From Planctomycetota bacterium (GTDB lineage Bacteria > Planctomycetota > UBA8108 > UBA1146), in the NCBI GenBank assembly GCA_012960845.1, contig DUAN01000026.1:1-41338 (forward strand): a DNA stretch of 41,338 nt. Reading direction: 5' to 3'. The position numbers and the translations under genes were made by a program. Under the pieces are notes generated by a model. That model was not told where the DNA came from, searched no databases, and saw nothing but the letters and a program-made list of their open reading frames with translations. Shown in pieces: positions 4,385-4,732 of this stretch. Within the stretch, counting starts at the first letter, position 1, and the number at the start of each line of letters is the position of its first letter.

Positions 4385-4612
4385 CTAGGCCTGTTTCGCA
4401 TCCAGCGAGGTAAAGATCTCTGAATGCTCTGGAAACCTGCTCAGCTCTTTCTTGCTAAAAATCAGGTCTCCGTCGACACAAACCTCGAAGACTCCGCCAC
4501 CACTCTCGATCAGGCGAGTGGCTACTCCGTATTTCTGATCGATTTCAGCCGCCAAACTGGTGGCCTGAGGCGTGTAGTTTCACTGCACGCAGTATTCGAT
4601 GCTGATCTCCAT
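4385..4612 (-). CDS. SelW/Rdx-family (SelT/SelW/SelH) selenoprotein with in-frame UGA (Sec) at 4580..4582
   Basis: Hand translation of the minus strand: MEISIEYCVQ-U-NYTPQATSLAAEIDQKYGVATRLIESGGGVFEVCVDGDLIFSKKELSRFPEHSEIFTSLDAKQA*. It has the CxxU redox motif, 'GGGVFEV.VDG', 'KK' and 'FPE' of the Rdx family. Absent from the ORF track because UGA was read as stop. An alternative in-frame ATG lies at 4627. Confidence 0.85.
4546..4567 (-). promoter_or_regulatory. Candidate bacterial SECIS stem-loop downstream of the Sec UGA
   Basis: RNA 5'-CAGGCCACC-AGUUU-GGCGGCUG-3': seven Watson-Crick pairs with one A.C mismatch and one bulged G, and a 5-nt apical loop with G in position 2. The loop begins 22 nt after the UGA. 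Folded by hand. Confidence 0.6.
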
Positions 4613-4732
4613 GATCTCTCGCTCCATTCCTTCTGAGTTCCAACGAGTTGACTCCACCCAGGGTGCTGGGTCGTTTATGGTAAGGACTCAATCGCATCTC
4701 TACCAGCAGACCCACCAAGGTCAGGAGGCCAG

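Follow-up and report, generated by a model that had tools for sequence, protein, structure and literature searches.

A selenoprotein W (Rdx family) gene with a conserved in-frame UGA codon upstream of ettA in a Planctomycetota bacterium

The stretch of DNA analysed here, from an uncultured Planctomycetota bacterium (the window; 41,338 nucleotides), encodes on its minus strand, at positions 4612-4385, a 75-residue protein of the Rdx/SelW family with the active site CVQ-U. The strand reads MEISIEYCVQ-UGA-NYTPQATSLAAEIDQKYGVATRLIESGGGVFEVCVDGDLIFSKKELSRFPEHSEIFTSLDAKQA-TAG, with the in-frame UGA at 4582-4580, where residue 11, the second of the CxxU motif, would be selenocysteine, and the TAG stop at 4387-4385. 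A spacer of 32 nt (4384-4353) separates this selW gene from the ATG (4352) of ettA (2667-4352), which lies immediately downstream on the same strand and encodes the energy-dependent translational throttle, an ABC-F protein (NCBIfam NF008775 EttA, 789 bits against a cut-off of 599); the divergent neighbour at 4733 encodes an M20 peptidase. Frame, UGA, TAG and peptide are exactly those proposed in a first-pass annotation of the window, which also correctly reported an empty ORF track at this locus: no ORF of at least 80 aa is called on the minus strand with UGA as a stop. The interval that it gave, 4385-4627, is right at the TAG end; at the other end it begins at an in-frame ATG at 4627 (MEREIMEIS...), whereas the peptide quoted with it begins at ATG 4612 (MEIS...). 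The sequences of relatives make ATG 4612 the most likely start and the MEREI extension (4613-4627) less so, because the extension is unconserved in G003 and G006 and because in G001 no ATG precedes MEIS in frame. Standard ORF calling overlooks this small selenoprotein, which much of the phylum retains. Elsewhere, the window contains short-period tandem repeats (10992-11046, 11085-11139, 13401-13473, 13508-13555 and 38447-38504) with units of 10-17 nt, such as CCAACTGTGCTCGA and GGAACTGCGGTCGA, some of which read into ORF ends.

Searches against curated profiles bear out the assignment to the Rdx family. Pfam PF10262 (Rdx) matches the product at 69.3 bits (E 3.3e-19; cut-off 22.6) over profile positions 1-72 of 74, and the family likeness claimed for both sides of the UGA is real, since the 64 residues after the UGA match Rdx by themselves (44 bits, E 1.9e-11). 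The product also scores 98.2 bits against the NCBIfam equivalog NF041051 (SelTWH_Campy, 'SelT/SelW/SelH family (seleno)protein'; cut-off 88) and 59.3 bits against TIGR02174, and columns 8 and 11 of its CxxU motif (C8-V-Q-U11) are invariant in 53 sequences when U is read as C. An AlphaFold model from an alignment of 53 relatives (mean pLDDT 88) places a strand at residues 3-8 and a helix at 14-28; its TM-scores are 0.79-0.91 against 2fa8, 2obk and 2ojl in a structure search and 0.74 against mouse SelW (2npb), so that the predicted fold is the thioredoxin-like fold of known SelW structures. Downstream of the UGA, substitutions at codon positions 1/2/3 number 0/0/3 against G002, 9/3/15 against G001, 12/2/31 against G003 and 11/3/28 against G006; this third-position bias, with dN well below dS, is as expected if the part after the UGA is translated.

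The host genome (a draft of 3.33 Mb in 243 contigs, 91% complete) was searched in its entirety for selenocysteine machinery and contains tRNA-Sec (67.5 bits; called by ARAGORN as tRNA-SeC with anticodon tca), selA (527 bits), selB (395 bits) and selD (343 bits). The genes selA, selD and tRNA-Sec are consecutive on contig 104 (L070, 2016-4698), and selB lies on contig 137. The predicted SelD has a UGA of its own at residue 17, within the glycine-rich part of the active site near the N terminus, where either selenocysteine or cysteine is established in this enzyme. The window indeed contains no sel genes, which is immaterial because the machinery is present outside it, and to the extent that genome data can show it, the earlier inference that the host decodes UGA as selenocysteine holds.

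Seven further genes of the host genome carry an in-frame UGA at a redox position, although only three families were searched: a peroxiredoxin (TPGU), five UxxC thioredoxin-fold proteins and an AhpD-like CxxU protein (CHYU), located (L109-L115) on contigs 124 (5635-6006), 39 (634-984), 126 (16930-17286), 15 (35011-35370), 163 (10994-11338), 103 (24600-24986) and 222 (2706-2855). The UGA is held by 6 of the 13 AhpC-TSA matches. A SECIS-like hairpin follows the UGA in good form in several of these genes (contigs 39, 126 and 15) and in poor form in one (contig 163). With SelW and SelD, the candidates number nine in a genome sampled in part; the host lineage thus seems to be rich in selenoproteins, with a sizeable selenoproteome, and the eight candidates beyond SelW, from so few families, are the most useful additional result of the analysis.

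A survey for Rdx genes covered 98 genomes, from members of the host's genus out to its phylum, and in 54 of them an Rdx gene has TGA in the alignment column of the window's UGA. Cysteine occupies that column in three Rdx genes of the survey (G018, G024 and G032), and seven Rdx paralogues have neither TGA nor cysteine there. Nearly all of the genomes with a TGA-containing Rdx gene (53 of 54) have selA or selB over cut-off; selA exceeds its curated cut-off in 49 of the 54 versus 26 of the 44 without such a gene (Fisher p 0.0003, relatedness ignored), and of the five that have the gene without selA, four have selB, two of them together with tRNA-Sec. The one remaining genome (G087, L021; 90% complete) has a UGA-containing Rdx gene and the hairpin, yet selA, selB and tRNA-Sec are all below cut-off, which could be explained by mis-binning, by incompleteness or a gap, or by recent loss. 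In G004, of the same genus as the host, selW is seemingly missing; contig 42 ends inside ettA (aa 269), and therefore the selW locus is simply unassembled there. A SelW 86% identical to that of the window is found on a contig deposited as a Bacillota metagenome-assembled genome (QNYK01000019.1); this contig and contig 65 of G003, which belongs to the genus of the window, are both 11452 long, and the Bacillota label is probably a misnamed record. A second Rdx paralogue, with glycine at the selenocysteine position (CxxG, codons GGA/GGC) or with the motif lost, occurs in G021, G022, G023, G026, G027 and G028 (L097-L102) and in G018 (L103); in those of G023 and G027 the SECIS-like stem still has 6 of its 7 pairs, as if a relic, and the paralogue is possibly a former selenocysteine gene that lost its redox pair.

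Downstream of the UGA of selW lies a putative bacterial SECIS hairpin (4565-4547, minus strand; GGCCACC-AGUUU-GGCGGCU), the loop of which (4558-4554, AGUUU) begins 21 nt past the UGA and the stem of which forms 6 of 7 pairs, with an energy of -8.2 kcal/mol alone (range -8.2 to -8.7). According to published limits, a bacterial SECIS element has a loop of 3-9 nt whose first two positions include G, an upper stem of 4-16 bp, a distance of 16-37 nt from the UGA, an energy of at most -7.5 kcal/mol and the loop pattern N1-G-[G/U]-N-N2 (PMC13188914); the hairpin of the window lies within every one of these constraints, and the loop (A/G)GUYU conforms to the pattern. RNAalifold predicted no consensus structure and no pairs in an alignment of 52 distinct sequences, and therefore the 7-pair stem was tested on the same alignment by direct pair counting and by a codon-preserving permutation. 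Across the 52 sequences 81% of cells are paired, and the covariation score of 0.319 compares with 0.139 in shuffles (0 of 500 reach it) and at most 0.149 in slid registers; CG, GC and GU/UG all occur at pair 21-33, and pair 23-31, as CG, UA, UG or AU, is paired in every sequence. When codons were swapped solely between sequences that share the amino acid concerned, leaving the proteins unchanged, neither the observed pairing nor the observed number of double changes was reached (0 of 2000 for each); synonymous resampling likewise never gave so high a paired percentage (0 of 1000), and was uninformative for double changes (586 of 1000 as high). The covariation of the stem thus exceeds what the protein dictates, and this hairpin offers a clean natural alignment of a bacterial SECIS. 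The three cysteine-type Rdx genes retain just 3-4 of the 7 stem pairs. An A-C mismatch at pair 22-32 occurs in several lineages, the window included, and the canonical stem is missing in G096, G097, G078, G054 and two Actinomycetota. The stability of the window hairpin is no more than mildly unusual, 6.6% of its synonymous versions being equally stable; when the 83 nt that start just before the UGA were folded whole, no signal appeared (z -0.8), and an Rfam search for a named SECIS family returned chance matches only.

We are therefore highly confident that the locus encodes a SELENOW-like selenoprotein W of the Rdx family and that its translation proceeds by selenocysteine insertion. SelB with Sec-tRNA-Sec would bind the mRNA hairpin just downstream of the UGA, and the ribosome would insert selenocysteine at 4582-4580 and read on to the TAG at 4387. 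The predicted product has a thioredoxin fold, and its redox pair, Cys8-x-x-Sec11, sits in the loop that joins strand 1 to helix 1. The protein is most likely a small thiol/selenol oxidoreductase that would cycle via a selenenylsulfide and be reduced by a cellular thiol system; the redox chemistry and physiological substrate, like actual incorporation of selenocysteine, are what we infer from the gene and its host.

Given the draft state of the assembly, the UGA might instead have arisen through faulty sequencing or assembly, or by point mutation of a cysteine codon, in an ordinary cysteine-type Rdx gene or pseudogene. The first-pass annotation had raised the possibility of an error in the reads; TGA recurs at the same place in 54 separately assembled genomes and is therefore not a sequencing error. 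The cysteine forms are moreover only 28-36% identical, far below the 70-89% of the UGA forms of the family. Independent relatives, together with the purifying selection downstream of the UGA, rule out both the error and the pseudogene readings, to which we attach a negligible probability. Reassignment of the UGA, or its readthrough by a route other than selenocysteine (for example tryptophan, glycine or a suppressor tRNA), finds a point in its favour in the glycine at the selenocysteine position of the Rdx paralogue of a few relatives; we consider it extremely unlikely in a host with tRNA-Sec, SelA, SelB and SelD, given that the Rdx genes of many relatives end on UGA as a normal stop, that the hairpin is conserved and that the UGA stands at the known selenocysteine site of CxxU (PMC2398784, PMC13188914).

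The position of selW relative to ettA raises a further alternative. Both genes could be placed on a single contig in 14 genomes of the family and order (G000-G003, G005-G010, G012 and G014-G016). In every one of them selW immediately precedes ettA on the same strand, and the coordinates put the intervening gap at about 20 to 105 nt. The co-transcription suggested by the first-pass annotation is made more likely by this conserved adjacency, although it is unproven: selW probably shares a transcript with ettA here, and because adjacency holds in 14 of 14 genomes, co-transcription is likely in this order. The UGA could on this basis have a dual purpose, in which termination at low selenium yields a 10-residue peptide and alters the translation of ettA, forming a selenium-responsive EttA switch. 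Against such a switch, which we regard as very unlikely, adjacency alone is common in bacterial operons, selW and ettA are on separate contigs in G017 (same class, outside the order), a promoter scan upstream of selW found nothing, and evidence of a promoter, a terminator or coupling is absent. A functional link between the two genes is speculation, and it is equally improbable that in this order the pair links translation to selenium or redox status, with selenocysteine decoding setting the expression of EttA, the ribosome throttle.

In the Global Ocean Sampling data the SelW-like proteins outnumber every other selenoprotein family, with 427 selenocysteine versus 56 cysteine sequences (PMC2398784), and they again rank first, at 11.3%, in a later marine survey (PMC9402790). 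SelW genes lacking annotation have been reported in Epsilonproteobacteria (PMC4607533). A history in which selenocysteine came first, with few cysteine forms in selenocysteine-using organisms, was argued in 2006 (PMC1794560), and the tally of 54 UGA forms to three cysteine forms fits it. Planctomycete selenoproteins were published in 2016 (PMC4807772): two members of the phylum from Porphyra, P1 and P2, have the selenocysteine machinery and several UGA-containing genes, and the main text of that report does not name SelW. The protein of the window exceeds the equivalog cut-off of SelTWH_Campy, from which its host differs in phylum, and it shares its fold and a related sequence with Agrobacterium Atu0228 (2fa8), in which the residue aligned to the selenocysteine is cysteine, with Pseudomonas 2obk and with mouse SelW 2npb. 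Understanding of selenocysteine decoding is unchanged by this gene. With the bacterial SelW-like selenoproteins (PF10262 Rdx, CxxU) it has in common the family, motif, size, fold, position of the UGA and downstream hairpin, and only the lineage of the host and the linkage to ettA are particular to it; bacterial SelW is a well-known selenoprotein family, to which the gene of the window adds a sound member.
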